Source: Bacteroidales bacterium (GTDB lineage: Bacteria > Bacteroidota > Bacteroidia > Bacteroidales > UBA932). From it: 43,276 bases of DNA. How positions within the stretch are numbered: position 1 is the stretch's first letter; each line of letters opens with the position of its first letter. The stretch spans positions 1 to 43,276 of the forward strand of contig JAFXVX010000016.1 in assembly GCA_017534745.1 (NCBI GenBank), written 5' to 3'. The position numbers were made by a program, and so were the translations under genes. Of this stretch, positions 7,214 through 33,817 are shown piece by piece. Under the pieces are notes generated by a model. The model worked only from the letters and a program-made list of their open reading frames with translations. It made no database searches and was not told where the DNA came from.

Positions 7214-7325
7214 TGGGGAAGGTCGGATTTAAAGTGTCCGACCTTCCCCATTGTTTTGGCCTCGTACTGTGCTACAGTGCCATATCGGCGGGGAAGGTCA
7301 CGGCAACGAAATCCGACCTTCCCCA
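7214..7325 (+). repeat. 112-bp structured intergenic element, copy 1
   Basis: The element begins and ends with inverted TGGGGAAGGTCGGATTT (17 bp exact). Internally, GACCTTCCCC and GGGGAAGGTC occur again, so four arms alternate. The first half is a 14-bp perfect stem with a 9-nt loop (7214-7251). The centre (ATTGTTTTG...TGCTACAGTGCCATAT) is conserved in copies at 12935-13046 and 33706-33817, all exactly 112 bp. It lies 29 bp beyond the dusB stop, between convergent genes. Confidence 0.75.
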
Positions 7326-7354
7326 GGAATCGGAGCCTAGAGCACGCCAAGGTG

Positions 7355-8389
7355 CTACACCCCGTAAACGGAGGTTTCCTCCGTAAGGGGGCAGTCGCCC
7401 CAGCGGGAGGCGATGTAGTCCAGGATGGAGAGGATCTCATCAGGGTCGGTGGTGGTGACGAGGCGGATGCGTGTCTGCTTGAAGTCGGGGAGGCCCTTGA
7501 AATAACAACTCAGGTGGCGGCGCATCTCATAGACGCCGGTCACGGGGCCCTTCAGGGATAGCGACAGGGCGAGGTGGCGCTTTGCAAGGGCCACCCTCTC
7601 GCGCACTCCCGGCGGCGGCAGCGGCTCGCCGGTGTCCAGTAGATGCCGTATCTCGCTGAATATCCACGGCCTTCCGAACGAGGCGCGCCCGACCATTATC
7701 CCGTCCACACCGTACCGGTCAAAAGCTTCCTTCGCCTTCTCTGCCGAGGTGATATCACCATTACCAATTATCGGAATATGCATGCGCGGGTTCGCCTTCA
7801 CCTGCCCTATGAGCGTCCAGTCCGCTTCGCCCTTGTACATCTGGCTGCGGGTGCGGCCGTGGATGGTGAGGGCGGCGATTCCGGCATCCTGCAGACGCTC
7901 GGCCAGCTCCACGATGATCTTGGAATTCTCGTCCCAGCCAAGGCGGGTCTTCACGGTCACGGGCTTCCCGACGGCCTCCACTACCGCCCGGGTGATGGCG
8001 ACCATCTTGTCAGGGTCGCGCATCATCCCGCTGCCGGCGCCGCGCCCGGCAATCTTCGAGACCGGGCAGCCGAAGTTGATGTCGATGATGTCGGCGCCGT
8101 GGCCGCCGGCGATCTCCGCCGCGCGGTCGGCCATCCGGGCAGCATCCACCATGGCTTCAGGCAGGTTGCCATAAATCTGGATGCCGACGGGCGCCTCTTC
8201 GTCGGAGGTCACCATCTTCGCGATGGCCTTCCTGGCGTCGCGGATGAGCCCGTCCGAGGAGACGAACTCCGTAAACACCATCGCCGCCCCCGCCTCCCGG
8301 CACAGCACCCTGAAGGACGCGTCCGTCACGTCCTCCATCGGCGCCAGCAGCACGGGCCGCGGCCCCAGGTCTATGTTCGCAATCTTCAT
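7355..8389 (-). CDS. dusB: tRNA-dihydrouridine synthase B
   Basis: The 344-aa cytoplasmic flavoenzyme reduces specific uridines in the tRNA D-loop with NADPH. The TIM-barrel N-terminus PVLLAPMEDVTDASFR (12-27), the catalytic Cys108 in DINFGCPVSKI, the FMN-binding VTVKTRLGW (about 147), the TIHGRTRSQMY block and the IIGNGDI / GIMVGRASFGRPWIF phosphate-binding loops are all present, followed by the helical C-terminal tRNA-binding domain. The frame is open further upstream, but those codons run through a GTCATT-type hairpin repeat (8391-8425), so the ATG at 8387-8389 giving MKIANIDLG is chosen. The gene sits between two paralogous FISUMP-like lipoprotein genes. Confidence 0.95.
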   Translation of the reverse strand: MKIANIDLGPRPVLLAPMEDVTDASFRVLCREAGAAMVFTEFVSSDGLIRDARKAIAKMVTSDEEAPVGIQIYGNLPEAMVDAARMADRAAEIAGGHGADIIDINFGCPVSKIAGRGAGSGMMRDPDKMVAITRAVVEAVGKPVTVKTRLGWDENSKIIVELAERLQDAGIAALTIHGRTRSQMYKGEADWTLIGQVKANPRMHIPIIGNGDITSAEKAKEAFDRYGVDGIMVGRASFGRPWIFSEIRHLLDTGEPLPPPGVRERVALAKRHLALSLSLKGPVTGVYEMRRHLSCYFKGLPDFKQTRIRLVTTTDPDEILSILDYIASRWGDCPLTEETSVYGV

Positions 8390-8390
8390 G

Positions 8391-8425
8391 ATTGAGATTC
8401 CTTCGCTTCGCTCGGAATGACAATT
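8391..8425. repeat. GAGATTCC...GGAATGACA hairpin repeat
   Basis: TTGAGATTCCTTCGCTTCGC is followed by TCGGAATGACAATTT, another member of the dispersed GTCATT(C/T)CGA hairpin family, placed between dusB and the next lipoprotein gene. Confidence 0.6.
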
Positions 8426-8433
8426 TCGGTAAT

Positions 8434-9672
8434 CTACGGCTGGACAGCGCGGACGTTGTAGCCTATGTGGCCCTCTTCCCAATTCTTGCCGTAGGTGTAG
8501 CTTTCGAGTTTTAAGCAAAAGCCCTTGGCGGATGCCTGGCTAGTGGGATTGGAAGCCTTGTCGGCCGACCAATAATAACCGATTTCGCCGCGTTCGGATA
8601 CTTCAGTACCGCGTTTCTGGCCGCCCCAGGGCAGGTAAATGGAGTTGCCGTTGCTCCCTGTTACTCGCCATCCATGCATGTCGCCAATAGTTTCTCTTGT
8701 CCATTGACAACCAAGGAGCTCCCTCACCTCTTCCCAGGTGGGCATACGCCAGGGGGAGCCCATAACGGCCAGGGCGGTGTCGTATTCTCCGCCTTCGATC
8801 GAATCGGGGATGGTGATTTGCGAGGAGGAGTTGAATATGTATCCTTCGGCGACGTAATTGCTTACGACGGAGGATTCGCCCCAGCGGTAGTAGTTGCCGG
8901 GGTCTGCCACCTTGGTTGCGCCGATATTGATGTTGGCCCATTTGACGGAAAGGCCAAGATCGACGGCTTCCAGTTGGAATTGTTTGACCGTCACCTCGCA
9001 GGTCGCGGTCTTGCCGCCTTCCTTTGTCGTGACTGTGATGGTCGCATTGCCTGTTGCGACTGCGGTTACGAGGCCGGTGCTGCTGACCGTGGCGACATTC
9101 TTGTTGCTGGTGCTCCATTCGACGTCCTGATTGACGGCTTCCGGAGGATCGATCGTCGCCGTGAGCTGGATGCTCGCCTCATCGCCCAGCGTAAGGGTCA
9201 CTTCGTCGTGGTCGAGACTGACGCCCTTGACCATAGTATTGTCGGTCCTGAAGGAGAAAGCCTCTCCATATTCTATATTTCCGTCTTTTTTCAGGAAGGC
9301 CCGGTAGTAGAAAACCTCATTTGGCGGCATGACCTCGGTGTGCGCCAGAAAACCCTTCCTTTCAAGGGGATCACCATCTTCCGTCCACCAATCTTCAGCT
9401 AATACAGTCGTCACCTCGCCGGTAAACTTGGAACTCTTGCTGTATTCAAAGCCGATGTCGCCGTTTGCGAACGATTCGTCAGTTAACTCAATGGAGTTGG
9501 CCACGAGGGCGTACATCTCGGCATAGAATTCCGACTCGTCTCCGAATACTTCCACGCCTCTCGTCTCTACAAACAGGGATTTGGGAGTTTTCTTGCTGAG
9601 CTTGTCCTTGCAGGAGGTTGCGGCGGCCGCAACGACGGCTGCGATGGCGATGATGGTGATGAGTCGTTTCAT
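8434..9672 (-). CDS. Lipoprotein with Big_2 domain and FISUMP-like domain
   Basis: The 412-aa predicted surface lipoprotein has signal MKRLITIIAIAAVV and lipobox AATSC (Cys about 20). After a domain carrying an ETRGVEVFGDESEFYAEM segment it has a Big_2 domain (DEVTLTLGDEASIQLTATIDPPEA...TVTTKEGGKTATCEVTV) and a FISUMP-like C-terminal domain (AVDLGLSVKWANINIGA, YYRWGE, WRMPTWEEV, GYYWSAD, NVRAVQP). It is paralogous to 5847-7142 along its whole length. The ATG at 9670-9672 is chosen because it gives the signal peptide and lies about 20 nt after a good promoter. The molecular role is unknown; such proteins are usually surface-exposed. Confidence 0.85.
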   Translation of the reverse strand: MKRLITIIAIAAVVAAAATSCKDKLSKKTPKSLFVETRGVEVFGDESEFYAEMYALVANSIELTDESFANGDIGFEYSKSSKFTGEVTTVLAEDWWTEDGDPLERKGFLAHTEVMPPNEVFYYRAFLKKDGNIEYGEAFSFRTDNTMVKGVSLDHDEVTLTLGDEASIQLTATIDPPEAVNQDVEWSTSNKNVATVSSTGLVTAVATGNATITVTTKEGGKTATCEVTVKQFQLEAVDLGLSVKWANINIGATKVADPGNYYRWGESSVVSNYVAEGYIFNSSSQITIPDSIEGGEYDTALAVMGSPWRMPTWEEVRELLGCQWTRETIGDMHGWRVTGSNGNSIYLPWGGQKRGTEVSERGEIGYYWSADKASNPTSQASAKGFCLKLESYTYGKNWEEGHIGYNVRAVQP

Positions 9673-9691
9673 ATCAAATGCATTTGGCTGA

Positions 9692-9723
9692 CTAATATAC
9701 ATATTATAAGATGAAACAACAAA
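9692..9723 (-). promoter_or_regulatory. Promoter for the second FISUMP-like lipoprotein gene
   Basis: On the minus strand TTTG (9723-9720), a 20-nt spacer and TATATTAG (9699-9692, one mismatch) precede the ATG at 9672 by 19 nt. It diverges from the rplM promoter. Confidence 0.6.
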
Positions 9724-9743
9724 TCGGGACTGTGCGGCGAATG

Positions 9744-9775
9744 TTTGTTTTTTCAGGGAAATATTCATAACTTTG
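9744..9775 (+). promoter_or_regulatory. Consensus promoter of the rplM operon
   Basis: TTTG (9744-9747), a 20-nt spacer and TAACTTTG (9768-9775) match the Bacteroidota -33/-7 consensus perfectly. The leader to the GTG start would be about 55 nt. Confidence 0.75.
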
Positions 9776-9835
9776 CGCCCCCTATAATGTGTAGGGATCG
9801 CAATAAATTGTTATAAACCATTAAAGATCAAGACA

Positions 9836-10288
9836 GTGGACACACAAAGCTACAAAACGGTCTCGCTCAACGCAGCGACCGTGAAGAAAGAGTGGGTCGT
9901 CATTGATGCAACCGATCTGGTGCTTGGTCGTCTGGCCTCCAGGGTCGCTCTTGTCCTCCGTGGCAAGACGAAGCCCGGTTACACCCCCCACGTGGACTGC
10001 GGTGACAACGTCATCGTCATCAACGCGGAGAAGGTGCGCCTTCTTGGCAAGAAGATGACCGACAAGGTTTACACTCGCTACACCGGCTACCCGGGTGGCC
10101 AGCGTTTTACCACGCCCAAGGAGATCCTTGCAAAGCGTCCCGCCGAACTCATCAGGAGAGCTGTCAAAGGCATGCTCCCCAAGACCCGTCTTGGTGACAA
10201 GATCTACGGAAACCTCTATGTCTATGCAGGTCCGGAGCACCCTCACCAGGCGCAGAATCCCAAACCCATCAAGTTAAACGAAATCTAA
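9836..10288 (+). CDS. rplM: 50S ribosomal protein L13
   Basis: The 150-aa protein has the L13 signature features WVVIDATDLVLGRLAS near the N-terminus, YTPHVDCGDNVIVINAEKV, the YTRYTGYPGG loop and GMLPKTRLG followed by LYVYAGPEHPHQAQ. It binds 23S rRNA early in large-subunit assembly. The start is a GTG codon; no ATG precedes the conserved SYKTVSLN segment in frame. It is followed after 9 nt by rpsI, the usual arrangement. Confidence 0.97.
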   Translation: MDTQSYKTVSLNAATVKKEWVVIDATDLVLGRLASRVALVLRGKTKPGYTPHVDCGDNVIVINAEKVRLLGKKMTDKVYTRYTGYPGGQRFTTPKEILAKRPAELIRRAVKGMLPKTRLGDKIYGNLYVYAGPEHPHQAQNPKPIKLNEI

Positions 10289-10297
10289 ACAGAGCAA

Positions 10298-10687
10298 ATG
10301 GAACAGAAACACGCACTTGGAAGGCGTAAATCAGCAGTCGCTCGTGTTTACATCTCGGCAGGAAAGGGCAGTATCGTTATCAATGGAAGAGAGCTCACCG
10401 ATTACTTCAAGGACGCTTCCCTCCATTACATCGTGAATCAGCCCTTCGAGGTCACCGGCACCGCCGGCCAGTTTGATGTCAAGATCACCATTGTCGGTGG
10501 CGGCACCAAGGGCCAGGCAGAGGCCGTCAGGCTCGGTATCTCCCGCGCCCTCTGCGAGATGGACAGCGAAGCTTACCGTCCTGCTCTCAAGGCCGCCGGC
10601 TTCCTCACAAGGGACGCCCGCGAGGTCGAGAGGAAAAAGCCCGGACAGCCCGGCGCACGCCGTCGCTTCCAGTTCAGCAAGCGTTAA
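10298..10687 (+). CDS. rpsI: 30S ribosomal protein S9
   Basis: The 129-aa protein carries [14 protein letters not shown] at the N-terminus, the [19 protein letters not shown] central motif and the basic tail [12 protein letters not shown] whose last Lys-Arg reaches the ribosomal P site. It is the second gene of the ribosomal operon. Confidence 0.97.
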
Positions 10688-10862
10688 TGCTGCAGAATTT
10701 ACGTTAGCACAGTCCGGTCACAAATCTTCTGACCTTTTGCAAGGATGTGAATCTTTCTAAGCTGCTTGAAGATTGCCGGTCTGCGGAAAATCCCCGGGAT
10801 TGACCGGGTGGTCACTACCCGGAGATTGAAGAAAAGAGAAAACAAAAAACAACAAAACAACA
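10688..10862 (+). promoter_or_regulatory. Leader of the rpsB-tsf genes with a CCGGGT/ACCCGG hairpin
   Basis: The 175-nt gap between rpsI and rpsB holds a clear stem-loop, CCGGGT (10805-10810) with ACCCGG (10818-10823), and other GC-rich pairings upstream, then an A-rich run into the rpsB ATG. No T-tract follows, so a structured leader, for example one bound by S2 for autogenous control as known for rpsB in other bacteria, is more likely than a terminator. This role is inferred. Confidence 0.4.
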
Positions 10863-11876
10863 ATGTCAAGAACAAATTTCCAGGAACTGCTTGATGCAGG
10901 CGCACATTTCGGACACCTCGCCCGCAAATGGAACCCCAAAATGGCCCCCTACATCTTCGACCAGAAGAACGGGATCCACATCATCGACCTGCACAAGAGC
11001 GTCGTCAAGATTGACGAGGCAGCCGAAGTTATGAAGGAATTCGCCCGTTCGGGCCGCAAGATCCTCTTCGTTGCCACCAAAAAACAGGCTAAGGAAGTCG
11101 TTTCCGAAAAAGCTCTGTCAGTCAATATGCCTTCAGTGACCGAGCGCTGGCCCGGTGGAATGCTCACCAACTTCCCCACCATCCGCAAGGCCGTGAAGAA
11201 AATGAACACCATCGACAAGATGAAAGAAGACGGTACCTTCGAGAAGCTCGCCAAGAGGGAGCGCCTCCAGATCGACCGTCAGAGGGCCAAGCTTGAGAAG
11301 AACCTCGGTTCCATCAAGGATATGAGCCGTCTCCCTTCCGCTCTCTTCGTCGTCGATATCCAGAAAGAGGCGAACGCCGTCAAGGAAGCCGCCCGTCTGA
11401 ACATTCCCGTTATCGCAGTGGTTGATACTTGTTGCGATCCCACCCCCATTGATTACGTGATACCGGCAAACGACGACTCCACGAAGACCGTCGAGCTCAT
11501 CCTCAGCGTGCTCTGCGCCGCCATCCAGGAGGGTCTCGAAGAGCGCAAGCTCGAGAAGGAGAAGACCGACGAGGACGCCCCCGTCGCCGAAGAAGCTCCG
11601 GTGCAGCCCGCCCGCAAGCTCCGCGCCCGCAAGAGCGCTGTGAAGGCCGAAGAGGCTCCCGCCGAGGAGGCCCCGAAAGCCGAGGCTCCTGCCGAGGAGG
11701 CACCCAAGGCTGAAGAGGCTCCCGTAGAGGAGGCTCCCAAGGCTGAGGCTCCTGCAGAGGAAGCCCCTAAGGCTGAGGAAGCTCCCGCAGAGGAGGCTCC
11801 GAAGGCTCCCGCCAAGAGGACCAGGGCCAAGAAGGCCGCTCCCGCTGCCGAAGAGGAAGCGCCCAAGGCTGAGTAA
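10863..11876 (+). CDS. rpsB: 30S ribosomal protein S2 with a long Ala/Glu/Pro-rich tail
   Basis: Residues 1 to about 230 form a normal S2 (QELLDAGAHFGHLARKWNPKMAPYIF, TERWPGGMLTNF, PSALFVVDIQKEANAVKEA, IPVIAVVDTCCDPTPIDYVIPANDDS). From about residue 245 to 337 the protein continues as a low-complexity tail made of EEAPKAE/APAEEAP units ending in basic KRTRAKK and acidic blocks. S2 is usually about 230-280 aa, so the tail adds some 60-100 residues. Its DNA (11590-11870) is a tandem-like repeat and may vary in length between strains. S2 helps recruit S1 and form the mRNA exit platform. tsf follows. Confidence 0.96.
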   Translation: MSRTNFQELLDAGAHFGHLARKWNPKMAPYIFDQKNGIHIIDLHKSVVKIDEAAEVMKEFARSGRKILFVATKKQAKEVVSEKALSVNMPSVTERWPGGMLTNFPTIRKAVKKMNTIDKMKEDGTFEKLAKRERLQIDRQRAKLEKNLGSIKDMSRLPSALFVVDIQKEANAVKEAARLNIPVIAVVDTCCDPTPIDYVIPANDDSTKTVELILSVLCAAIQEGLEERKLEKEKTDEDAPVAEEAPVQPARKLRARKSAVKAEEAPAEEAPKAEAPAEEAPKAEEAPVEEAPKAEAPAEEAPKAEEAPAEEAPKAPAKRTRAKKAAPAAEEEAPKAE

Positions 11877-11899
11877 TTCATCTTTAAACCGATAAAACT

Positions 11900-12892
11900 A
11901 TGGCTATCTCATTAGCAGATATCAAGAAACTCCGCGATATGACCAGCGCCGGTATGATGGACTGCAAAAACGCCCTTACCGAAGCTGAAGGCGACTTCAA
12001 GCGCGCTGTGGAGATTCTTCGTGAGAAGGGTAAATCCACCCTCTCCAAGCGTGGTGACAACGAGACGACCCAGGGTGCCGTCCTTTCCCGCATCGAAGGC
12101 GGAAAGGCCATCCTCGTCTGCCTCGGCTGCGAGACCGACTTCGTCGCCGCAACGCCCGACTTCAAGACCCTCGCCGGCGGCATCGCTGACGCGGCAATCA
12201 AGGCGTTCCCGGCTGATGCCGAGGCTCTCAAGGCTGAGAAACTCGCCGACGGCTACACCGTCGAAGAGGACATCACCAACCAGGCCGGCAAGACCGGCGA
12301 GAAGCACGTCCTCGCATTCTACGGTGCCCTCGAGGCCCCGTGCGTTGCCGAGTACGTCCACTTCAACGGTAAGCTCGGCGCCATCGTTTCCTTCAACAAG
12401 GAGCTGAACCCCGAGCTCGCCCGCGGTATCGCCATCCAGGTCGCGACTATGAACCCGGTCGCCGTCGATGAGGCTTCCGTCCCCGCCGAGGTGCTCGAGT
12501 CCGAGAAGAACGTCGCCATCCAGAAGACCAAGGACGAACTCGTCCAGAAGGCCGTTGACGCCGCCCTCAAAAAGGCCGGCATCAACCCCGCCCACGTCGA
12601 TAGCGAGGACCACATCGAGTCCAACACTGCGAAGGGCTGGCTCACCCCGGCTCAGGCCGACCAGGCCCGTCAGATTATCAAGACCGTCGGTGAGGAGAAG
12701 GCTGCAAGCCTCCCCGCTCAGATGATCGAGAACATCGCTAACGGCCGCGTCGCCAAGTTCCTCAAGGAGAGCACCCTTCTCGCGCAGGAGTACCAGTTCT
12801 CCGACGACAAGCTGTCCGTCGGTCAGGCTCTTGCCGCTGCCGACAAAGAGGCGAAGGTCCTTGCCTTCCGCCGCTTCTCCCTCGCGGACTAA
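11900..12892 (+). CDS. tsf: Elongation factor Ts
   Basis: The 330-aa protein is the GDP-GTP exchange factor of EF-Tu. The N-terminal UBA-like part ISLADIKKLRDMTSAGMMDCKNAL and the core motif ILVCLGCETDFVAATPDF, which contacts EF-Tu, are clear, followed by two core subdomains and a C-terminal FLKESTLLAQEY segment. It is 23 nt downstream of rpsB, as expected for this operon. Confidence 0.97.
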   Translation: MAISLADIKKLRDMTSAGMMDCKNALTEAEGDFKRAVEILREKGKSTLSKRGDNETTQGAVLSRIEGGKAILVCLGCETDFVAATPDFKTLAGGIADAAIKAFPADAEALKAEKLADGYTVEEDITNQAGKTGEKHVLAFYGALEAPCVAEYVHFNGKLGAIVSFNKELNPELARGIAIQVATMNPVAVDEASVPAEVLESEKNVAIQKTKDELVQKAVDAALKKAGINPAHVDSEDHIESNTAKGWLTPAQADQARQIIKTVGEEKAASLPAQMIENIANGRVAKFLKESTLLAQEYQFSDDKLSVGQALAAADKEAKVLAFRRFSLAD

Positions 12893-12894
12893 GG

Positions 12895-12922
12895 CGTCAT
12901 TCCGGGCTTGACCCGGAATCTC
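12895..12922. terminator. ATTCCGGG hairpin after tsf (dispersed repeat)
   Basis: ATTCCGGG (12899-12906) and CCCGGAAT (12912-12919) form an 8-bp stem with a 5-nt loop just after the tsf stop. Lacking a T-tract, it is not a textbook terminator, but the place fits transcript termination or 3'-end protection. Nearly the same sequence occurs at 33674-33700, and both precede a 112-bp element. Confidence 0.5.
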
Positions 12923-12934
12923 CGCCTTGCGATT

Positions 12935-13046
12935 TGGGGAAGGTCTGATTTTAAGTGTCAGACCTTCCCCATTGTTTTGTCCGCAGAGTGTGCTGTAGTG
13001 CCATATTGGCGGTGAAGGTCCCGCCCCTGAAATCAGACCTTCCCCA
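12935..13046 (+). repeat. 112-bp structured intergenic element, copy 2
   Basis: It has the same length and layout as copy 1. In all three places where copy 1 has a G-C pair within the GGTCGGA/TCCGACC stems, this copy has T-A (GGTCTGA/TCAGACC), in both the internal hairpin and the terminal repeats. These are compensatory changes that keep the stems. It differs from the reverse complement of copy 3 at about 10 of 112 positions. It lies between convergent tsf and the regulator gene. Confidence 0.75.
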
Positions 13047-13068
13047 AAATGTGCTGGCGAGGCTCCAA

Positions 13069-15858
13069 TTAGGACTGTTTGCGGATGTACTCGGTGGGTG
13101 TGACACCCATGGAGCGGCGGAAGGCGGAGGCGAAATAGGAGGGGGTGGCGAAGCCGGTCATGTAGGCGATCTCGGCGATGGAGTATTTCTTCTCGTGAAG
13201 AAGGCGGCAGGCTTCGTTGAGGCGGATGGTCTTGATAAACTCCAGGGCGGGAACGCCGAAGAGGGCTTTGACCCGCAGGTGGAGGTTTGAGCGGCTCATG
13301 TTCATCTCGGATGCGAGCATCGGGACGGAGAAGTCGGGGTTATCCAGGTTTTTCTTCACCACACGGACGGCGTTTCGCATGAACTCCTCGTCGCCCTTGC
13401 CGAAATTCTTCTCGGCGGAGGCCTGGCGGGAGCGGTCTTCCCGCCCGGACGGCTGGGAGGCCCCGAGGCTGACGAACTCCAGTGAGAAGTCCTGCAAGAG
13501 CTCGTTGCGGAATTTTTCCATCTCGCTCTGGTGCTCCTCTTTCTCTTTGGAAATCAGCCAGAGGAAGTAGCCCACGACAACAAGTAGCAGCAGGAGGGCG
13601 ATGACTATCCTCGCTGCGAGCGTCTCGTACCAGAAGGCGGCGACGCGAAGGCGCAGGGTCGTCTCGCCGGGGCAGGGGATGCCGGAACTGCTTCGGTAGT
13701 CGAGGCGGAAGGTGTAGTTGCCGTGGCTAAGGCCGTGGTACGCCGCCTTCCTGTCCACTCCCGCTTCGTGCCAGTCGGTGTCCACGCCGTCCATCCTGTA
13801 GTAGAACTTCCCGTCGCGGCCGGAAATATAGTCCGGAATGGAGAACAGGAATGTTACGTCCCTCTCGCGCGGCTTCAGGGAGACTACTGCCTCTCTGGAG
13901 CCCCCATCCGCGCCGATGACGGGCACTGCCCGCCGGACGCCGTTGACTTCGATGCCGGCGATGACCGGGCGGACGTCCAGCGTTGAAGGCGCCACCTCGG
14001 ACGGGTCGAACCAGACCATCCATGAGAGGCCGCCGAAATAGATTTCACCGCTACTGGCCCGGCAGTGGGCGTACGAGGAGAACCGATCTCCCGGAAGCCC
14101 GTCCGCTTCCGTGAAGATGCTTTTCTCCCCGGTCGAGGGGTCGAGACGGTACAGCCCGTTGTTGGTGCTTATCCAAAGCATCCCGTCGGCGTCCTCCTCC
14201 ACCCCGTGGATGACGTTGTCCGGCAGTCCGTCCTGAGTCGAGAGCACCTGCACGCCCCCGCTTTCGCGGTCATAGCTCAACAGCGCGCCGCTCGAGGAGA
14301 ACCATATCCTCCCGGCGGAATCCTCCATCACATCCTCCACATAGCGGAATTCGCCCAGCTCCGGCGGTAGGGCGACGGGCTCCCCGCTCTCCCACTGCAG
14401 GGCGGACACACCTGTCTTGCGTCCTATCCAAAGGATCCCGTCCCGGTCCATCATGATGGATTTGATTTCGGTAATATTTTCCTTAGTACGGACTGCGGAG
14501 AGCTCCCCGGAGTGTTCGTCGTAGAGGAACACTCCCTCCGAAGCCCCTACGATCACTTTCCCTGTTCCATCGTCCGTCATGGCGTACACGCTGAGCGAGC
14601 GTCCTCCGGAGACCTCACGGATCTGCCTGGTCACCGGGTTCAGGATTGCGAGTCCGCCGAGATCCGCCCCCAGGAGTATCTTCCCAGAGACAGGGCTTAC
14701 ATAGATACATTTGATATCCAGCGGATCGCCGTGCTCCCCGCCGAGGGTGCGGATATGCTCGAACCTGCCGTCCGGGAGCAGGTGGTTGAGGTCTCCGGAA
14801 TTGGTGCCTATCCAGAGCGAGCCGTCGGCGGCTTCCGCTATATCGCTGATAATGTTGCCGTTGAGATAAGCCTCCCCGGGGCGGGAAACTGAGCCGCGGA
14901 ACTGCGAGAAGCGGGGCGTCGAGTAGCAGACGCCGCCGTAGTAGGTCCCGAGCCACATCGTCCCCTGCTTATCCCTGAAGATCTCATAAACGCTGTTGTG
15001 GGTGATGCTGCGGGGGTCGTAGTAGTTGTGGTAAAAGACCTCAAATCTGTCGCCTTCCAGGATATTCAGGCCGTTCTTGGTGCCGATCCAGAGGCGGCCG
15101 CTTCCGTCCATACACAGTGAACGGACGTGATTGTAGCTGAGATGCCCTGCTCCGGGGGAGGACTGGTAGTGCTTCAGGGCACCGTCCGGCCGGATCTCCC
15201 ACAGTCCGCCGCCTTCCGTCCCGACCCAGAGCGGCCCGTCCGCGTCCTTCAGCAGGCAGTTTACCCTGAACCCTCCTAGGTCCACAGGCACTTCCCGGAT
15301 ATTGTCAAGGGATGTTGAAGCGGTCGCGATGCGCCCGTCCAACGTACCGAAACAGAGAGTGTCGCCGTAGCAGATAACGGCGTTGACCGACAAGTCCTTC
15401 AGCTCCCCCGGAATCCCTTCCCGGCTGAAAGAACCGTCCGCGTCGGTGAAATACCACAGTCTTTTCCCTGTGGCTGTCAGGAAACGGCTGTCGCCCAGGG
15501 GTAGTACCTCCTCCACTGCCCCGTCCGGGCTGGCATAGCTACGGAAATCCCCGACGGCGTGATCATAGACCGAAAGCCCGGACATGTGGGCGACCCAGAT
15601 CCGTCCGTCGCTGTCGCATACTATTTTATATATACGGTTATCGGGGATACCGCCGCCTGCCGCTTCGGCATTGTGGCGGAAACTAGTGTAACGGCTTCCG
15701 TCATACAGCGTAAGGCCGTCGCGACCGCCGAACCACATGTTGCCGAGACTGTCCTGGCAGACGGTCTCGATGTTGGTCCCGGCGGACTCGGTGGGAAGTG
15801 AATGGAAGGTTAACCCACTCGCCAGGATAGAAATCAGTATGGAAGCTAAAATCGACAT
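13069..15858 (-). CDS. Membrane-spanning PUL regulator: propeller, Y_Y_Y, AraC DNA-binding domain, no kinase
   Basis: The 929-aa protein starts with a signal/anchor (MSILASILISILASG). Residues to about 660 are two-component-regulator-type beta-propeller repeats (for example DSDGRIWVAHMSGLSVYD, DADGMLWISTNNGLYRLD). A Y_Y_Y Ig-like domain (YYRMDGVDTDW, about 690-735) and one membrane helix (about 752-770) follow, then a short charged linker and a C-terminal AraC-type double HTH (about 824-929, ending GFATPSYFASAFRRSMGVTPTEYI). The histidine kinase, ATPase and receiver domains of classical hybrid two-component systems are absent, so binding of a glycan fragment outside must be passed directly to the cytoplasmic DNA-binding domain. 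The start at 15858 is preferred over a codon at 15912, which lies upstream of a -7 box. It faces the SusC/SusD operon and most likely controls it. Confidence 0.85.
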   Translation of the reverse strand: MSILASILISILASGLTFHSLPTESAGTNIETVCQDSLGNMWFGGRDGLTLYDGSRYTSFRHNAEAAGGGIPDNRIYKIVCDSDGRIWVAHMSGLSVYDHAVGDFRSYASPDGAVEEVLPLGDSRFLTATGKRLWYFTDADGSFSREGIPGELKDLSVNAVICYGDTLCFGTLDGRIATASTSLDNIREVPVDLGGFRVNCLLKDADGPLWVGTEGGGLWEIRPDGALKHYQSSPGAGHLSYNHVRSLCMDGSGRLWIGTKNGLNILEGDRFEVFYHNYYDPRSITHNSVYEIFRDKQGTMWLGTYYGGVCYSTPRFSQFRGSVSRPGEAYLNGNIISDIAEAADGSLWIGTNSGDLNHLLPDGRFEHIRTLGGEHGDPLDIKCIYVSPVSGKILLGADLGGLAILNPVTRQIREVSGGRSLSVYAMTDDGTGKVIVGASEGVFLYDEHSGELSAVRTKENITEIKSIMMDRDGILWIGRKTGVSALQWESGEPVALPPELGEFRYVEDVMEDSAGRIWFSSSGALLSYDRESGGVQVLSTQDGLPDNVIHGVEEDADGMLWISTNNGLYRLDPSTGEKSIFTEADGLPGDRFSSYAHCRASSGEIYFGGLSWMVWFDPSEVAPSTLDVRPVIAGIEVNGVRRAVPVIGADGGSREAVVSLKPRERDVTFLFSIPDYISGRDGKFYYRMDGVDTDWHEAGVDRKAAYHGLSHGNYTFRLDYRSSSGIPCPGETTLRLRVAAFWYETLAARIVIALLLLLVVVGYFLWLISKEKEEHQSEMEKFRNELLQDFSLEFVSLGASQPSGREDRSRQASAEKNFGKGDEEFMRNAVRVVKKNLDNPDFSVPMLASEMNMSRSNLHLRVKALFGVPALEFIKTIRLNEACRLLHEKKYSIAEIAYMTGFATPSYFASAFRRSMGVTPTEYIRKQS

Positions 15859-15897: not shown

Positions 15898-15950
15898 TTT
15901 AGCGATAAACACTTTCTATAATTGCATCGTGAAGAACTAATAACCGAGTC

Positions 15951-16799: not shown

Positions 16800-16814
16800 A
16801 CAGCCCGTGCAAAT

Positions 16815-24221: not shown

Positions 24222-24243
24222 ATAACAATTAAATCCATATACT

Positions 24244-27200: not shown

Positions 27201-27603
27201 CCCTATGAACGATAGCAATGACGGATGGAATAAGAGTACGGCGCTTTTGGAAAATCGAATTGCCGCGTTGAACACCAACAACTATCCCGTGATTCTGATG
27301 GGCGACTTCAACTGTGTGATTGGAAATGCCTGCTGGGACAATATCAAAACCTGGATGAAAAACACCCGGTATAATGCAGATACGATTGTCAGTGATGAGA
27401 ACAGGGATCTTTACACGTATAATGCTTTTGGCGACAGTTCGAAAGCCCGTAATAAGGTTGACCATATCTGGGTAAGCAAAAACGGGATAAACGTGGATTC
27501 TTACGTTACTCTGACAACGGCCGTCCATAATTATGGCGGTTACACTACAAACGGTGAGACTTTCCTCTCCGACCACTATCCCATCATTGCCCACATTTCC
27601 TAA
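24244..27603 (+). CDS. Fimbrillin-like / GLUG beta-helix / EEP fusion lipoprotein
   Basis: The 1119-aa lipoprotein (lipobox ALTAC, Cys20) has three parts. An N-terminal domain resembling the fimbrillin-like family (about 45-305, DETKTVFGTNHVVWEADDLVG...VYAYYPFSS) is followed by a GLUG-repeat beta-helix (about 310-830, GGLVGFADVSGG, GGLVGYAKEVTFTSCTNSG, GGVIGVVGSNSGLQSCKNEG) homologous to the preceding gene. The last part is a complete EEP hydrolase domain (about 855-1119) with MSFNIREG (Asn861), LQEVKD, MGDFNC (Asp1021, Asn1023), KVDHIW and SDHYPI (His1111). It would thus place a phosphodiesterase-like enzyme on a surface adhesive stalk. The DNA of the GLUG part (about 25380-26760) is visibly more AT-rich than its flanks. 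The order is unusual; the substrate is unknown. Confidence 0.82.
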   Translation: MKFKKLLTSALLLAVALTACTKKEEPFEQPEEVVPPQEEEGDFAYIFKIADETKTVFGTNHVVWEADDLVGSYASTSKNKSTPVTIDGSGGVHITIRSSVALAAGDMVYAYYPFSSTNNNKEAGAVTLEIPRNQVSGSADAMPMVALPFELTGPVSSYTNTEVGTLQFMNLGSIIKLNIFSSDASFQGETIENVTLQAGTACAGSFTYDITALDEANPAAISGYEETDVVVSGDGAHPTTVGVDRDHGGVFYVIVAPGTYAGSFKIRTSRAEYIYNSASRTYSRASVKPLNIDLAGTNWTAVTGYDNTIDSPRELYEFLAGTSSSDTGSYTITADLDMTGYTITSASGFGGTLEGNDHKISNVVSSVPLFETNNGTIRNLILDETCSFSPSSNKFGALVREDKGGVYESVKSAASVIYTPSDNITTCTMIGGLVGFADVSGGPTFTSCSNSGQVKLEAPGYYHVTLAMGGLVGYAKEVTFTSCTNSGPVTVNAWYGDPAVDDSIVDLIGIGGLIGFIYSSSSSSSLITCENKAQGVVTLNHTDLYQLETGSAAYSVAVGGVCGYGTVNMNKANNYAPINVSCKSANGNAQKIKKYILKCGGVIGVVGSNSGLQSCKNEGAITVDYDGSYRGDANNVNCAAVGGIFGSVGYNNSSQINYCDSKAPISVAGKGKVCVGGIGGINGKLIRDRFFGGASITISVAESYVGGIWGQVSQNGSGAYAQAKGCKVEASITNTTSGWSSMGGLLGLWNAGNTGNNVFFISYDGEQSSFSGTISAPLSNASGVGFLIGETAGDSQTKNFGKSDDKILASGSIERNGLSLTQITSSNIETYWYGKKKGTNNIYVEAPEEVSPSSLTLMSFNIREGSNWTSRRGPIVSMINGESPDLIGLQEVKDLDVYDLATQGKHPWNYLKDNLSAYSGYRSGTYHNAILYKTSTVELSNTGIFFLRDDYNTSGNSWDGYERTALYATVREKATGRYFFYITTHFPMNDSNDGWNKSTALLENRIAALNTNNYPVILMGDFNCVIGNACWDNIKTWMKNTRYNADTIVSDENRDLYTYNAFGDSSKARNKVDHIWVSKNGINVDSYVTLTTAVHNYGGYTTNGETFLSDHYPIIAHIS

Positions 27604-27618
27604 ATCTTGAGTACAGTT

Positions 27619-27741
27619 ATGAAAGAGTATATAACACCTATTACCGAATGGTCCGTCCTCAAGGTTGGCAATTTCTGCGCGTCCTTTGATTCAACGGACA
27701 ACACTGAAACCTGGACGATCGAAGAAGGAGAAGATCTCTGA
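27619..27741 (+). CDS. 40-residue peptide overlapping the lyase-hydrolase start
   Basis: A 40-codon ORF begins with ATG 15 nt after the preceding stop and ends in TGA that shares its A with the next ATG (TGATG), a sign of translational coupling. The peptide starts MKEYITPITEWSVLKVGNFC and continues with an ASFDSTDNTETW stretch and an acidic end. This pattern (MKxYxTPxxE, a hydrophobic middle, Cys-Ala-Ser, acidic Gly-poor tail) resembles small Bacteroidales peptides encoded beside surface-protein genes, as recalled from genome annotation. It has no signal peptide or known domain. It may be a secreted or signalling peptide, or a translational leader for the enzyme gene. Confidence 0.6.
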   Translation: MKEYITPITEWSVLKVGNFCASFDSTDNTETWTIEEGEDL

Positions 27742-30719
27742 TGCTCAGAGTATTACTGATAGCGACAGCCCTTCTGGCCTCGCACGTTTCGGATATTGAC
27801 ACCTCATCCCTGGTGATGAACCAGGGGTGGGTGCCGTATCCGGCGTATGACGACAGGGATGGATGGGCTGAGCAACTGGGGGAGTATCAGGAGAGGATAG
27901 CCGCGGCGGGGGAGAAGTACCTCGGGTTCCGGTGGGTGGACATCACGGATGATGACTACCGCGCTTGGGACCTTCGCGACGACCGCCACCAGATGGAGGA
28001 CAAGTATTTCGCCAACCAGGAGGCCATACGTAACCTTTTCGTCGCGGAACTCGCGGAAGGGAAGGGACGGTACCTGTCCGACATCGCGGCGGGCGTGGCC
28101 TGGTGGTGCGACCTTTACTCCTGGTCGGTGGTGACCCATCTTGCGAAACTCCAGACGAACAGGAATCCGGTCCCGAACCCGGGCGAGCAGATTGTCGAGC
28201 TGCAGTCGGGCAACGTGTCGCAGATGATGGCGTGGCTGCACTATTTTCTCGGGGCGGAGCTGGATAAAATCCAGCCCGGCCTTGCGGGCCGCCTGAAGAA
28301 CGCCGTGAAGGAGAAGACGATGGACACGTACATGAATCGCGACGATTTCTGGTGGATGGGCTTCGACACAAGTTCCGGTAAGAAACTCAACAACTGGAAC
28401 CCCTGGTGCAATCAGAACGTCCTCCTCTGCTTCATGCTGCTGGAGGACGACAGGGAGAAGCTCGCCCAGGCTGTGGAGAAGACAATGCGCTCCGTGAGCC
28501 TGTGGCTGGATTCGCTGCCCCGGGACGGCTGCTGCGACGAAGGTACGACCTATTGGTACAAGTCCACCGGTCACCTGCTGGACTACCTGGAGAATCTCGG
28601 GCGCATCACCGGAGGGGCTGTGAACCTCTGGAATGAGCCGCTCCTCCAGCGGATGGGCGATTTTATCGTCAACGCCGACATAGGCGACTGCTGGCAGGTC
28701 AATTTCGCCGACGGGACGCCGTCGAGGAGGCCGATTTCCTATTGGATATACCGCTACGGGAAGGCTTCCGGCAACCGTCTGATGATGGATTTCGCCGTGA
28801 ACAGCTTCCACCGCTACGGCGCCGATCCGACGGATGTCAACTGGACGCTGTTCTATCAGGGGATGGAGGCCATCACCGCGTGCCGCGAGATGAAGGCGCT
28901 TCCGTCGCCGGAGGTGAAGCCTGCTCCTTTCGTGTACTATCCGAAGACTGACGTCTGTTTCGCCCGTGCCGGGAAGGGTTTCCTCGCGGCCAAGGGCGGC
29001 ACCAACGGCGAGCGCCATAACCACAACGACGTCGGGAGCTGTATCTATTTCTTCGATTCCGCTCCAGTGCTGATTGACGCCGGCATAGGCAATTACGAGA
29101 AGAACACCTTCGGCCCTCACCGCTACGAGAACTGGTTCGTCCGGAGTGGCTGGCACAACCTGCCGGTCGTCAATGGCTGCGAGCAGGTCTTTGGGGAGGA
29201 GTACAGAGTTTCAGGCAGCCGTGCGAGCAGGCTCCTTCGGCGCTATGTCACCGACATCGCCGGGGCCTATCCCGACTCCGCCGGTGTGGAGTCCTGGAAG
29301 ATCGCCTACCGGCTCCGTCGCGACGGAGGTCTTGTAATCCGTGAGAATTACTCCCTGAAGGAAGCGGTCTGCCCCAACGAATTGCATTTTCTTGTGAAAT
29401 ACGAGCCGGTGGTTTCCGGCGATGGGGAGATACAGCTGCATGGGGTGACGATGCGCTACGACGCCTCCGCCTTTGACGTTTCCGTTGAGGAAAAGTCGAT
29501 GGTGGGCCTTGGGTTCACCGACAGGTGGGGCAAGAGTATATATCGTATTGTCCTTACTGCGAAGGATTTGCAGAAGAAGGGGCGTTACGTGTTCCGGTTT
29601 GTGCCTTCGCCGGAGGAGCCGATGGAGCTCCTGACGGCGCGGGTGCTGTCCGTGGCCAAGAAGCAGTTCGCACTGCTCCACGGACGGCTGGGGCCCGATA
29701 AGCTTCCCCGTACGCTCAATGAGGACGGAAGCGTGAAGGACTGTGGCATATCCTCATGGCCGAGCGGGTTCTTCCCGGGCTCGCTGTGGCTGCTGTATCA
29801 GCTGACGGACGACGATGCCGTCCGCGATATGGCTGAAGAGGAGACGGTCAAACTGGCCCCGATCCTGTGTTGCCCCATCAACCACGACATCGGTTTCCAG
29901 ATTAACTGTAGCTACGGCAATGCCTACCGCCAGACGGGAGATGAGAAGTATCTTCCGCTCATCGAGGATGCCGCGAGGGCGCTCGCCGGCCGGTTCAACC
30001 CGACCGTCGGCGCGACCCTCAGCTGGGAGCCCGGCGAGAGGGGGAAGTGCCCCGTCATCATAGACAATATGATGAACCTGGAGCTGTTGGAGTACGCCTC
30101 GAAACTGTTTGAATGCGATTCGCTGCAGGCGATTGCCGTGACCCACGCGGAGACGACTATCCGCAACCACTTCCGTCCGGACTACTCGACCTGGCACATG
30201 CTCGACTACGACCCGGCGACGGGCGAGGTCCTGCGCCGCGTGACGGTGCAGGGCTACTCCGACGACAGTGCCTGGGCCCGTGGCCAGGCCTGGGGCCTCT
30301 ACGGCTTTACGATGATGTATCGCGAGACCGGGCGCGGGGAGTTCCTCGCACAGGCGGAGCACATCGCCCGCATGCTCCTCGAAAGGCTCCCCGCTGACGG
30401 CATCCCCTGGTGGGATTTCGATGACCCCGACATCCCGAACTACCGCGATGCCTCCGCGGGCGCCATCCTCGCCTCCGCCTTCATCGAGCTGAGCACACTG
30501 ACACAGGACAAAAAGTTGTCACGTGCTTGTTTCTCCACAGCGGAGAAACAAATCCGTACACTCTCGTCCCCTGAGTATCTTGCTTTGTCTGGAGAAAATG
30601 GAAACTTCCTGCTGAAGCACAGCGTCGGCAACCTGCCGAGTGGCGTCGAGGTTGACGTCCCCCTCACCTACGCCGACTACTACTTCCTCGAAGCCCTCTG
30701 CCGGTATAACGCTCTGTAA
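27741..30719 (+). CDS. Bifunctional heparinase II/III-like lyase and GH88 unsaturated glucuronyl hydrolase
   Basis: One 992-aa frame joins two enzymes. Residues 1-15 are a signal peptide. Residues about 30-640 are an (alpha/alpha) toroid plus beta-sandwich polysaccharide lyase of the heparinase II/III superfamily, with the active-site block [12 protein letters not shown] (His426, His428) and the [22 protein letters not shown] segments. Residues about 650-990 are a GH88 hydrolase: [22 protein letters not shown] (Asp716), [11 protein letters not shown] (Asp775), the two Asp about 59 residues apart as in unsaturated glucuronyl hydrolases, and [12 protein letters not shown]. The lyase would leave a 4,5-unsaturated uronic acid at the new end, and GH88 would hydrate and release it. 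It would act in the periplasm. No sulfatase is present in the locus, so a non-sulfated uronide is favoured. Confidence 0.85.
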
Positions 30720-30733
30720 CTCCTGTCATTTCG

Positions 30734-32995
30734 ATGCCCTCCCTGTTGACATTTCTGACTCTGCTGACGGCTTTTTCCGCTGCTGGTTACCAGGAGGGGA
30801 GGGACACCGTAATCGCAAGGACGCTGGAGGTGCCGCCGGGGATGCTGGAGGCGGAGGCGGTGTACCTCAGGGCGGACTACGTGGACACGTTCTGCGACGT
30901 GAGTGTCAACGGGCACTTTGTGGGCTCGACATCTAACTATTTCCGCAAATGGGAGTGGGACGTGAAGGAGTTTCTCCACGAGGGAAGCAACGTCGTGGAG
31001 GGAGTATTCCACGACGCCGAGGCCATCACGGAGAAACTCGACGCCGCGTTGCCCTATCCCATACCGATGAGCGGGGTGGGCTTTGTGCCGCACCTGAACC
31101 TTATCCGTAAGCCGGGCTACCACGGCGGATGGGACTGGGGACCGAAGTGTATGAACGTCGGGTTCGCCGGGGAGCTGTCGCTGATCCCGGTCAACGTGGC
31201 CCGGGTAGATTACCTCGGATGTGCGCAGGACCATTCCCGGAAGGGGAAATGCACGGTGACGCTGAAGGCGGAACTGTTCTCGCCGAAGGGCGGGAAGACG
31301 AAGCTGTCATTTGCCTGTGGTGGCAAGGTCAAGAATAAAAAAGTTGCCTTGCAACCGGGCACCAATGTCGTTTCGCAAAACTTTGTGATTCGTAAACCGA
31401 AACTTTGGTGGCCTGCAGGGATGGGTGAACAGCCGCTGTATGAAGTCAGCGTCAGTGCCGATGGACAAAGGCTTTCGAAGAAGATCGGTCTCCGGACGAT
31501 CGAGGTGGGGGAGAACCTGGCTTTCCACGTGAACGGGAAGCCGATCTTCGCTGCGGGAGCCAACTGGATCCCGTGCGAGACGGATCCGTCGCGGGAGACG
31601 TATGGCAGGTATCTGGACCTTCTGACCTCGGCGCGCGATGCCAATATGAATATGGTGCGCCTCTGGGGCGGCGGCAAGTTCGAGAAGGACGCTTTCTATG
31701 AAATCTGCGATTCGTTGGGGCTGCTGATCTGGCACGACTTTATGTTCTCCTGCGCGATGTATCCCGCCACGGAAGAATTCCTCGGCGAGGTCAGCGCGGA
31801 GATTACGCATCAGATCAAGAGGCTTCAGAGCCATCCTTCAATCGCGCTATGGTGCGGTGATAATGAGGGGATTGATAATTACAACAAACGGATTTGGAAG
31901 AAGAATCCGCAGCTGTATCGCGGTGAATATGAGGCGCTTGTGTCGTTGAGGGGCGACCTGGTAGCCGCGCTGGACCCGGAGCGGCTCTACTGGCCGACCT
32001 CCCCCTGCGGCGGCCCCGGAGACCTCGACACCAACGGCTGGAAGGACGACTCCAAGGGCGACATGCACCTTTGGGATGTATCCAAAAGGGTACAGCCTCT
32101 GTCGGCATACTACAAGTACAATCCCCACTTCATGTCGGAGTTTGGCCACTCCTGCTTCACCTCCCTCCTCCCCGACATGGAGGAACAGAAGGCCCACATC
32201 CGCGAAAAGGGCGGCTACGACAACATCCTCGCCCGCATCTCCCTCCACTTCCCGGTTGTCATTCCGAGCGAAGCTGCTGCCGTTCCTGGCGCCTCTTCTG
32301 TCATTTCGAGCGAGCAGAGCGAGTCGAGAAATCTGATTTACCTCTCGCAGATCGAACAGGCCATCGGCCTGGAAACTGCGATTTCCTACTGGCGTTCCCT
32401 CCCGAAATGCAACGGCATCCTCGTGTGGCAACTCAACGACATTTGGCCGGGCGCATCGTGGTCCACGGTGGAGTACGACGGCTCCTGGAAGCCGGCGCAC
32501 TACCACCTCCGCCGCCTCTTCGCCCCCGACGCCCCCAAAACCCCGACCGTCTTCCCCGACTTTAAGTCGGGCCAGCAGCCGGGGTCGCCTGACGCCTCTG
32601 CCGGCCCTTCTGCTGACCTTCAGCCGGGAACCGCAGCCTCTGCCGGCCTTTCTGCCGACGCGTGTGACGTCCTTCCGGACGCCACCGTGAAGGCCGATAC
32701 CGCCGTTAGGGACGGCCGTCTGGTGGTGACTCTCACCACCGACAAGCCCGCTTACTTCGTCTGGCTCACCGCACCTGGCGCACGATTCAGCGACAACTCC
32801 TTCACCCTCCTCCCCGGCGAGACAAAAGAGGTTACCGTCATTCCGCACAATGAGATTTCTCCGTGCGCTGCGCTTAGTCGAAATGACAGTGCCGTCCCTT
32901 CTGTCATACCGAGCCCCGGAGGGGCGAGCGTATCTCCATCTATCACCGTCACCCATCTCGCGAAAGAAATCGCACCTTTCCGTTCTGATAGATAA
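30734..32995 (+). CDS. GH2 beta-mannosidase, N-terminally short and with repeat-derived inserts
   Basis: The 753-aa protein has a signal-like N-terminus, most of the jelly-roll domain ([24 protein letters not shown]), an Ig-like domain, a TIM barrel with the acid/base Glu378 in LWCGDNEG, the nucleophile Glu469 in MSEFGHS, and a C-terminal Ig-like domain ([15 protein letters not shown]). It releases beta-mannose from non-reducing ends, presumably in the periplasm. Compared with usual beta-mannosidases it lacks about 60-70 N-terminal residues. Its start lies at a GTCATTTCGA motif. In-frame copies of the GTCATTCCGAGCGAAG hairpin family encode residues about 509-535 (32259-32336) and a stretch near the C-terminus (32851-32937). 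A Pro/Ala/Ser-rich insert (about 610-650) separates barrel and Ig domain. Activity may be altered. Confidence 0.82.
32256..32337. repeat. Hairpin repeat inside the beta-mannosidase reading frame
   Basis: GTCATTCCGAGCGAAGC (from 32259) and GTCATTTCGAGCGAGCAG with GTCGAGAAATCTGATT (32302-32336) are two members of the dispersed hairpin family placed between the TIM-barrel strands of a GH2 gene, without breaking the frame. A further pair lies at 32851-32937. Confidence 0.65.
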
Positions 32996-33003
32996 ACTGC
33001 CGT

Positions 33004-33639
33004 ATGAAAAAAATATTACCGTTCATACTCATCCTCTTATTATTCGGCTGTGACAAAAACAAAATTGACTTGCCGCAGCCACATGTTTACGACGCAATCT
33101 TCATCGGGGACTCAATAACGGCTAACTGGAATAAGGAATCCAAAGGACATCCCGAGTTTTTCAGTGAGAATAATTTCCTTTGCCTGGGGTTCTCCGGGAA
33201 GACGTCGGGTTATCTGAAGACCTTATTCAACAAGGGTGTGACGGAGAAGCACCCCGGGAAGGCCGTTATCCTTTGCGGTACAAATGACATAGCGCAGAAC
33301 GACGGGGTCTATGTTTCCAACGAAGAGATATGTGACAATATCGCCTGGATGGCGTCGGAAGCGGCAGGGAGCGGCATCAAAGTAGTCCTATGCTCCGTCT
33401 TGCCCAGCACCCACTTCTACTGGGCCACTTCAATTCATCCGGAGGATATAATCATTGAACTCAACGTCCTGATCAAGGCGCTCGCCGAAGAGAAGGGCTA
33501 TGCGTATGTCGATTACTACTCGGCCCTGGTCGATTCAAACAAAGGCCTGCCCTCAGAGTATTCCTCCGACGGCTGCCACCCCAACCAGGCCGGCTACACC
33601 GTCATGGAAAACCTCATCCTCCCGATCCTTCAGAACTAA
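33004..33639 (+). CDS. SGNH/GDSL esterase lipoprotein
   Basis: The 211-aa lipoprotein (lipobox LLFGC, Cys16) is an SGNH hydrolase. Block I is IGDSIT with the nucleophile Ser37, Gly68 lies in block II (KTSG), Asn94 in CGTNDIA is block III, and block V is DGCHPN with Asp189 and His192. Such enzymes remove acetyl or other acyl groups from glycans. Last in the operon and 8 nt after the mannosidase, it probably deacylates the imported oligosaccharide. Its upstream neighbour's unusual tail ends just before it. Confidence 0.88.
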   Translation: MKKILPFILILLLFGCDKNKIDLPQPHVYDAIFIGDSITANWNKESKGHPEFFSENNFLCLGFSGKTSGYLKTLFNKGVTEKHPGKAVILCGTNDIAQNDGVYVSNEEICDNIAWMASEAAGSGIKVVLCSVLPSTHFYWATSIHPEDIIIELNVLIKALAEEKGYAYVDYYSALVDSNKGLPSEYSSDGCHPNQAGYTVMENLILPILQN

Positions 33640-33673
33640 CGGATGTCCCGCTTTTGCCATCTTGGTACGAAGG

Positions 33674-33700
33674 CGTCATTCCGGACTTGCCCCGGAATCT
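33674..33700. terminator. ATTCCGG hairpin after the PUL operon (dispersed repeat)
   Basis: ATTCCGG (33678-33684) and CCGGAAT (33692-33698) form a 7-bp stem shortly after the operon's last stop. The sequence is nearly the same as after tsf (12895-12922). A role at transcript ends is likely. Confidence 0.5.
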
Positions 33701-33705
33701 CAACT

Positions 33706-33817
33706 TGGGGAAGGTCGGATTTCAGAGGCGGGACCTTCACCGCCAATATAGCACTACAGCATGCTCTGTGGGCAAAACAATGGGGAAGGTCCGGCACTTA
33801 AAATCCGACCTTCCCCA
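33706..33817 (-). repeat. 112-bp structured intergenic element, copy 3 (inverted)
   Basis: This copy is the reverse complement of copies 1 and 2 and again exactly 112 bp. It has the same TGGGGAAGGTCGGAT ends, the same core (TTGTTTTGCCCACAGAG...TGCTGTAGTGC when reversed) and the GGTGAAGGTCCCGCC inner arm shared with copy 2. No target-site duplication is evident at its borders. Confidence 0.75.

Follow-up and report, generated by a model that had tools for sequence, protein, structure and literature searches.

What are the three 112-bp repeats that lie on contig JAFXVX010000016.1 of a Bacteroidales bacterium, and how could they have spread? The contig, analysed here in its entirety as one window of 43,276 nucleotides (contig C3 of a 2.29-Mb genome of 21 contigs), had been described in an initial annotation as carrying three copies of a structured intergenic element, each exactly 112 bp long and the third inverted, which could be a miniature inverted-repeat transposable element (MITE) or a REPIN (a pair of inverted repetitive extragenic palindromes, REPs), or else a dispersed structured RNA. 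Re-extraction of the three sites and a detector that ignores the letters of the repeat gave the same positions, lengths and orientations. The count of three is right for the window; it missed a fourth copy of 111 bp on contig C4 of the same genome (C4:9019-9129), which brings the copies found to four. Very probably the three copies are REPINs, each composed of two inverted 56-bp halves; one REP-associated tyrosine transposase (RAYT) encoded on C4 likely cuts and copies them as single strands.

The element and the transposase gene beside it

The detector searches for any arm, its inverse about 25 nt further on, the same arm again and its inverse again, whatever the letters, and in the window it reports exactly the three copy sites, with 30, 29 and 29 of 30 arm letters. 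A repeat search of the window groups the three copies as one family, and folded as single-stranded DNA they are more stable than their shuffled versions (z of -8.4, -6.4 and -7.4 for copies 1, 2 and 3). Reversed copy 3 matches copy 2 at 91% identity, in line with the ten or so differences counted earlier, and the ends of copy 2 carry the terminal inverted repeat with GGTCTGATTT. The compensatory change that had been claimed for copy 2 is partly borne out: relative to copy 1, G is replaced by T at column 12 together with C by A at columns 26 and 101, but in copy 3 column 26, the partner within the internal hairpin, is G and only the end-to-end pair is kept there, and of the four arms only the inner right one is without the change.

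A search for an autonomous transposase with the same ends had been suggested as a check; what came to light is a RAYT gene (HUH tyrosine transposase) on C4, which adjoins the fourth copy so closely that its stop codon lies inside that copy. The open reading frame (ORF) is intact in this genome. The residues H66, H68, Y126 and N130, corresponding to the HUH motif, the catalytic Tyr and a downstream Asn, are invariant in 22 RAYTs, and a structure model of a 90%-identical RAYT (L138; predicted local distance difference test, pLDDT, 85.9) supports the IS200/RAYT fold. When the RAYT alignment was used to search solved structures by sequence, no credible match emerged; the search by fold was the one that succeeded. 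Thg1, which heads the Foldseek list for the model, was rejected as a fold match as it ranks below all transposases by VIA Z.

The link between the gene and the element extends across the genus. A covariance model built from 19 copies (threshold E up to 1e-3, nine candidates per genome scored) has hits in 153 of 400 genomes of the genus and in 59 of the 150 good-quality ones, with nearly the same scores on both strands; 150 of the 171 matches, representing 78 places and 72 distinct copies, were aligned. Among the matches listed, 103 of the 114 genomes with this RAYT clade carry the element (odds ratio 44). At the RAYT loci, which are the listed matches nearest to the protein of this genome, the detector finds elements in 97 of 110 cases and nothing in five rounds of Markov controls. 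In another genome of the genus (G034) the element occupies 13 places, and five pairs of its copies are 90-98% identical within outer flanks that are only 19-51% identical, which suggests recent spread.

The length of 112 bp is explained by the internal plan of the element, 2 x 56, i.e., two inverted halves with one hairpin each. The logo built from 194 half-elements shows [TC]GGGnAAGGTC followed by a loop mostly with ATTT, the inverse arm and a partly conserved spacer whose position 53 is A in 87%. All four arms carry one 10-nt stem with a conserved AGGT on the loop side and a variable part on the foot side. The covariation that had been predicted from three copies holds across many: in 71 elements with less than 80% identity, taken from 97 of 112 bp, 95.4% of the hairpin cells are paired, both sides have changed at 11 of 20 hairpin pairs, and at stem column 5 as many as 38 of the 71 elements have neither base of the commonest pair. 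Among 178 distinct elements, 97 are 112 bp long, 29 are 110, 111 or 113 bp, 31 are 97-101 bp, seven are 81 bp and six are 121-125 bp, with eight of other lengths. Helical phasing of these lengths (81, 99-100, 110-113, 121) was viewed by eye only and we do not claim it. A terminator role was considered and dropped, the T-rich tract ATTGTTTT that follows hairpin 1 not being conserved in other species.

Of 173 elements with flanking sequence, 77 have an additional outward arm beyond the core at some offset of 12-99 bp, mostly exactly 22 bp out (40 on the left, 38 on the right) and also at 44, 66 and 88 bp; in the opposite-orientation control on the left side there was none at 22 and one at 21. 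A conserved ORF of about 118 codons lies upstream of the RAYT on the same strand at 44 of 110 loci (e.g., L141:2145-2498), with a distance of -4 to 21 nt from its end to the RAYT start; it is missing in scattered RAYT clades and is absent beside the RAYT of this genome. Its product has no Pfam match above cut-off and no NCBIfam, PHROGs or PADLOC match, and its structure model (pLDDT 62.7) was too poor for use. An association between the arm ladders and this accessory gene (Fisher p 0.05, kinship ignored) is not claimed. At L043:1501-1520 the RAYT stop and last codons lie inside an arm of the adjacent REPIN, and several other RAYTs of the clade end in GKV, as the arm would encode.

Stem sequences and transposase residues

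The arms and the transposases have diversified together. There are 46 distinct 10-nt arms among 91 RAYTs, and arm and element length both correlate with the RAYT tree (Mantel 0.43 and 0.49, reached in 0 of 999 permutations; the trees used were built with FastTree). Elements on either side of a given RAYT agree in arm and in length (30 of 33 to within 1 bp), and the length classes of 81, 97-101, 110-113 and 121 bp follow RAYT clades; in the seven closest RAYT pairs of the Mantel bins the mean length difference is 6.4 bp, so near relatives can differ in length as detected. The loop-side GGT is present in 142 of 145 RAYT-adjacent elements before they were set in register. Since the register step requires GGT, its invariance thereafter is partly by construction: 16 of the 145 failed to align in register on GGT/ACC and were excluded, three for want of GGT and 13 for want of ACC at the position where it was expected. 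The compensatory change between copies 1 and 2, located one base beyond the arm (+4), is likely a small within-genome case of the same drift of stems that keep their palindrome.

Counting the first G of GGT as base 0, the mutual information between residues of the 91 RAYTs and their arms is highest for residue 172 and base -3 (15.6 standard deviations, SD), where Glu goes with G in 31 of 31 cases, Arg with C in 33 of 34, and mostly hydrophobic residues with A. It is followed by residue 178 and base -2 (13.3 SD; Gly with A, Arg or His with C), residue 168 and bases -5 and -4 (9.8 and 8.1 SD) and residue 102 and base +3 (9.3 SD), the next value being 5.7 SD. In the predicted structure residues 168-175 form a helix, and residue 102 is in a loop between helix 76-98 and strand 108-113. 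Amino acids have ordinary base preferences, with which a reading of the 3' arm mostly agrees: at 172 Glu would meet C, Arg or Lys G, and Ile, Val, Leu, Ala or Met T, and at 178 Arg or His would meet G, Asp C and Asn A. The occurrence of Asp172 with outer C is a misfit to these preferences.

The rules were fixed before 40 further RAYT loci were fetched, of which 30 had a usable element. On these 30, the rule for residue 172 gave the right base in 28 (majority base 10, nearest RAYT 25), that for 178 in 30 (12 and 27), that for 102 in 27 (19 and 23) and that for 168 in 17 (14 and 23). Both failures at 172 concern residues Ser and Met, for which there was no rule. Four held-out loci (L286, L287, L288 and L305) share 95-99% identity with a training RAYT, and without them the scores are 24 of 26 for 172 and 26 of 26 for 178; one more, L306, is the same locus as L098, which had been met earlier and was unused for the rule. 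At each of 172 and 178 the rule is right where the nearest relative is wrong in three held-out loci. A tree with 121 RAYTs has 18 changes at base -3, of which 13 fall on branches where residue 172 changes (p 1.7e-11), and 12 at base -2, of which 10 fall on branches where 178 changes (p 1.3e-12), with the next of 267 eligible columns at 1e-3 and 1e-4, respectively. In addition, 24 pairs of RAYTs that share a genome and go with different bases were compared (20 genomes; a held-out locus is part of 17 pairs, and seven consist of training loci only), and in all 24 the own assignment of bases fits better than the swapped one; in this test the Met and Ser rules at 172, which the hold-out had revealed, were added, and in three of the pairs the own assignment fits three of four bases.

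These results make it probable that residues 172 and 178, which lie in and just after one helix, constitute a natural code for DNA hairpins, each reading one base pair of the stem, that specificity has switched some ten or more times within the genus, and that distinct enzyme-hairpin pairs coexist in one genome. Residues 102 (base +3) and 168 (bases -5/-4) are weaker candidates for readers by their covariation, residue 102 having a rule that works and a weak co-change on the tree (p 1e-3). The RAYT on C4 has K168, E172, G178 and S102, and the code assigns G(-3), A(-2) and C(+3) to the last three, i.e., the arm TGGGGAAGGTC of the window copies. It predicts that this enzyme would prefer single-stranded halves with the arm GGGGAAGGTC over those with GGGCAAGGTC and GGGGCAGGTC.

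Surroundings of the copies

The features are collected below. According to a crude ORF picker, 45 elements comprise 17 in convergent, 16 in tandem and three in divergent positions and nine unclassified; the same picker has 13 of the 45 overlapping ORFs of more than 150 codons, cases that were unverified singly and on which we base no claim.

Coordinates of the REPIN copies, their arms and their neighbours (window positions unless a locus is named)
Feature	Position	Strand	Details
REPIN copy 1	7214..7325	+	112 bp; located by repeat search and arm-blind detector
Copy 1 arms	7214-7224, 7240-7250 (inverted), 7289-7299, 7315-7325 (inverted)		
Copy 1 neighbours			Big_2-domain gene (+) / dus gene (-), convergent
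Terminal inverted repeat, copy 1	7214..7230	+	17 nt, TGGGGAAGGTCGGATTT; identical at copy 3 ends
REPIN copy 2	12935..13046	+	112 bp; three of four arms with GGTCTGA variant
Copy 2 arms	12935-12945, 12961-12971 (inverted), 13010-13020, 13036-13046 (inverted)		
Copy 2 neighbours			tsf (EF-Ts, +) / Reg_prop/HTH_18 regulator gene (-), convergent
REPIN copy 3	33706..33817	-	112 bp; inverted relative to copies 1 and 2
Copy 3 arms	33807-33817, 33781-33791, 33732-33742, 33706-33716	-	
Copy 3 neighbours			GDSL lipase gene / AXE1 esterase gene, tandem on one strand
22-bp ladder of arms, example	L050 around 1410-1660		

A second RAYT, of another clade and 15% identical to that on C4, is encoded in the window at 35878-36786 (-), is one of the five Pfam PF01797 matches of the genome and is flanked by its own single hairpins (AAAACCCTGG...) at 35775-35811 and 36811-36847, which are unlike the REPIN hairpins; the genome holds no second exact match to the perfect hairpin form at 36811-36842. 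Palindromes of the form CGTCATTCCGG...CCGGAATCTC are found at 12896-12922 and 33675-33701, 12 and 4 bp before copies 2 and 3, and resemble the CGTC-tagged REPs of PMC3733652. Near the left end of the contig, short AAAAGTGACCAAA-type repeats occur at 195-470 and 2085-2114, close to a tRNA at 2176-2260. A plasmid search gave no match. All 24 related-RAYT records with names are metagenome-assembled genomes (MAGs) of uncultured Bacteroidales or Bacteroidia; 11 have a ruminant stomach compartment in their titles and 11 more bear RUG names, which we take to denote rumen genomes, and the source bacterium is likely from a ruminant gut.

Mechanism, alternatives and relatives

By analogy with the RAYT/IS200 family, the enzyme would bind and cut each half as a single-stranded hairpin, as IS200/IS605 and RAYT transposases do, and would copy the hairpin pair to new sites. 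Residues 172 and 178 would directly read the base pairs at -3 and -2, and the REPINs that flank different RAYTs of the genus have different stems. Several results weigh against this account. Neither a transposition event nor a clean empty site came to light: a search with the flanks of copies 1, 2 and 3, a check proposed at the outset, returned no relative with both flanks and without the element (the flank of copy 2 matches in 128 of 151 genomes because this copy follows tsf), and a relative that lacks the element after tsf (G085) has a right flank that is not syntenic. The copy number is low. The element is missing its expected partner in part of the genus, since 50 of the 153 element genomes lack a RAYT at the threshold applied and 11 to 21 genomes with a RAYT lack a detected element (many genomes are incomplete MAGs), and 13 of 110 RAYT loci and 10 of the 40 held-out ones are without a usable REPIN. 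The RAYT of this genome scores 18.6 bits (E 0.002) with Pfam PF01797, below the cut-off of 23, and is not among the five PF01797 matches in the genome, and Foldseek gives nothing at E 0.001, its top two rows being Thg1 and the third 4er8 at E 0.006. The GT[AG]G motif is found at the hairpin foot in only 5 of 356 outer and 4 of 356 inner half-elements, against a background of 129 of 4218 8-mers; the element has no GTAG tag and is not a classical GTAG REP. As all four arms change together, selection for local hairpins (eight cells) is not separable in these data from selection for the end-to-end fold (six cells). Finally, residue 168 was rejected as a reader of base -5, the nearest relative outperforming its rule though co-change is present.

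A dispersed structured RNA, i.e., a transcribed regulatory or terminator RNA kept for its fold, would account for the abundant compensatory changes and for the location of copies 1 and 2 between convergent genes, as are 17 of the 36 elements that the crude ORF picker classified. It is very improbable, however: the element is nearly strand-symmetric, no Rfam family reaches its gathering score (the sole match in the window is a tRNA), arm and length track the RAYT tree and the arm bases track RAYT residues, and the ATTGTTTT tract is not conserved in other species. This part of the initial annotation is not supported, and of its other part REPIN is the better name, because a RAYT adjoins the element, the arms are hairpins and there is no clear target-site duplication. 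We give hardly any credence to a MITE of a classical DDE insertion sequence, in spite of the 17-bp terminal inverted repeats, the fixed length and the lack of a gene inside. The enzyme encoded beside the element belongs to the HUH tyrosine transposases, each half forms a hairpin of its own, and among 175 elements no duplication of 2-10 bp is clearly above shuffled flanks (at 2 bp there are 73 matches, where 50 shuffles gave 61.8 on average and 72 at most, and at 3-10 bp none exceeds the maximum).

It is possible, and we consider it unlikely rather than negligible, that an ancestral RAYT spread the elements and that they are now immobile and kept by the host, for example as terminators or recombination brakes. 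Such domesticated REPINs would fit the low copy number, the element genomes with no detected RAYT and the convergent intergenic spots of copies 1 and 2; the intact RAYT ORF of this genome and the copy pairs of G034, which suggest recent spread, speak against this reading. As for the code, all RAYTs belong to one clade and the arm and RAYT trees correlate, so the residue-base correlations could reflect phylogenetic hitch-hiking with no contact. We regard this as improbable, as strong co-change among the tested columns is confined to 172 with base -3 and 178 with base -2, and as the rule succeeds both where the nearest relative fails and in all within-genome pairs.

We classify the element as a REPIN that works like one with its RAYT: it has inverted REP palindromes at a set distance, hairpins with compensatory change, a RAYT flanked by it and several copies. 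The comparisons that follow cover the accessible parts of the cited papers. With the REPINs of Pseudomonas fluorescens SBW25 (PMC3116915), whose spacing is 71 or 110 bp, it shares the inverted REP pair, the fixed spacing, the extragenic location and the association with a RAYT; unlike them, it has no GT[AG]G tag and few copies per genome, the entire 56-bp half including the spacer is symmetric, some species have ladders of 22-bp arms, and 112 bp is the commonest length across many species. The REPs of pseudomonads and stenotrophomonads (22 and 13 classes; PMC3686654) likewise have their own palindrome for each RAYT, but there the conserved part is a GTAG foot, with no residue-to-base code, whereas here it is the loop-side AGGT. 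RAYT subclass 2.6, or Bertels group 5 (PMC6006769), also comes from Bacteroidetes, and its gene lies between atypical secondary structures that lack GT[AG]G and have further genomic copies; its motifs are NH[LIV]H and YIH[QN]NP with about 82 residues between HuH and Y, in contrast to NH[SC]H, YIPRNA and 58 residues here, and judged by the sequence features compared our RAYT does not belong to it. In the TnpAREP-REP pairs studied by SELEX (systematic evolution of ligands by exponential enrichment; PMC8266576) a hairpin is also read by an HUH transposase that co-evolves with its REP, through contacts to the GTAG tag, a bulge or loop base and stem positions and through helix alpha3, whereas here the covarying residues 168-178 come after the catalytic Tyr. 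TIRtrons (PMC3733652) similarly have a tyrosine transposase gene between longer inverted repeats unrelated to GTAG REPs, some of which form small families; in the present case the gene is flanked by REPIN dimers with arms that differ from enzyme to enzyme.

That REPINs have a fixed spacing and that REPs and RAYTs co-evolve was already known (PMC3116915, PMC3686654, PMC8266576). As far as searches of an open-licence library show, four things are new: the clade, the plan of 2 x 56 with its symmetry and its ladders of 22 bp, the partner gene upstream of the RAYT, and the code that links residues to bases.

How transposases acting on single-stranded DNA choose their hairpins has been studied in a few enzyme-REP pairs. 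One genus with at least 46 different stems tied to their enzymes, and with two amino acids from which two stem bases were predicted in held-out loci, makes the question of recognition directly testable, and the length of an element can evidently stay fixed across many species while its sequence changes. The code, if correct, would allow part of a REPIN arm to be predicted from the protein sequence of its RAYT.

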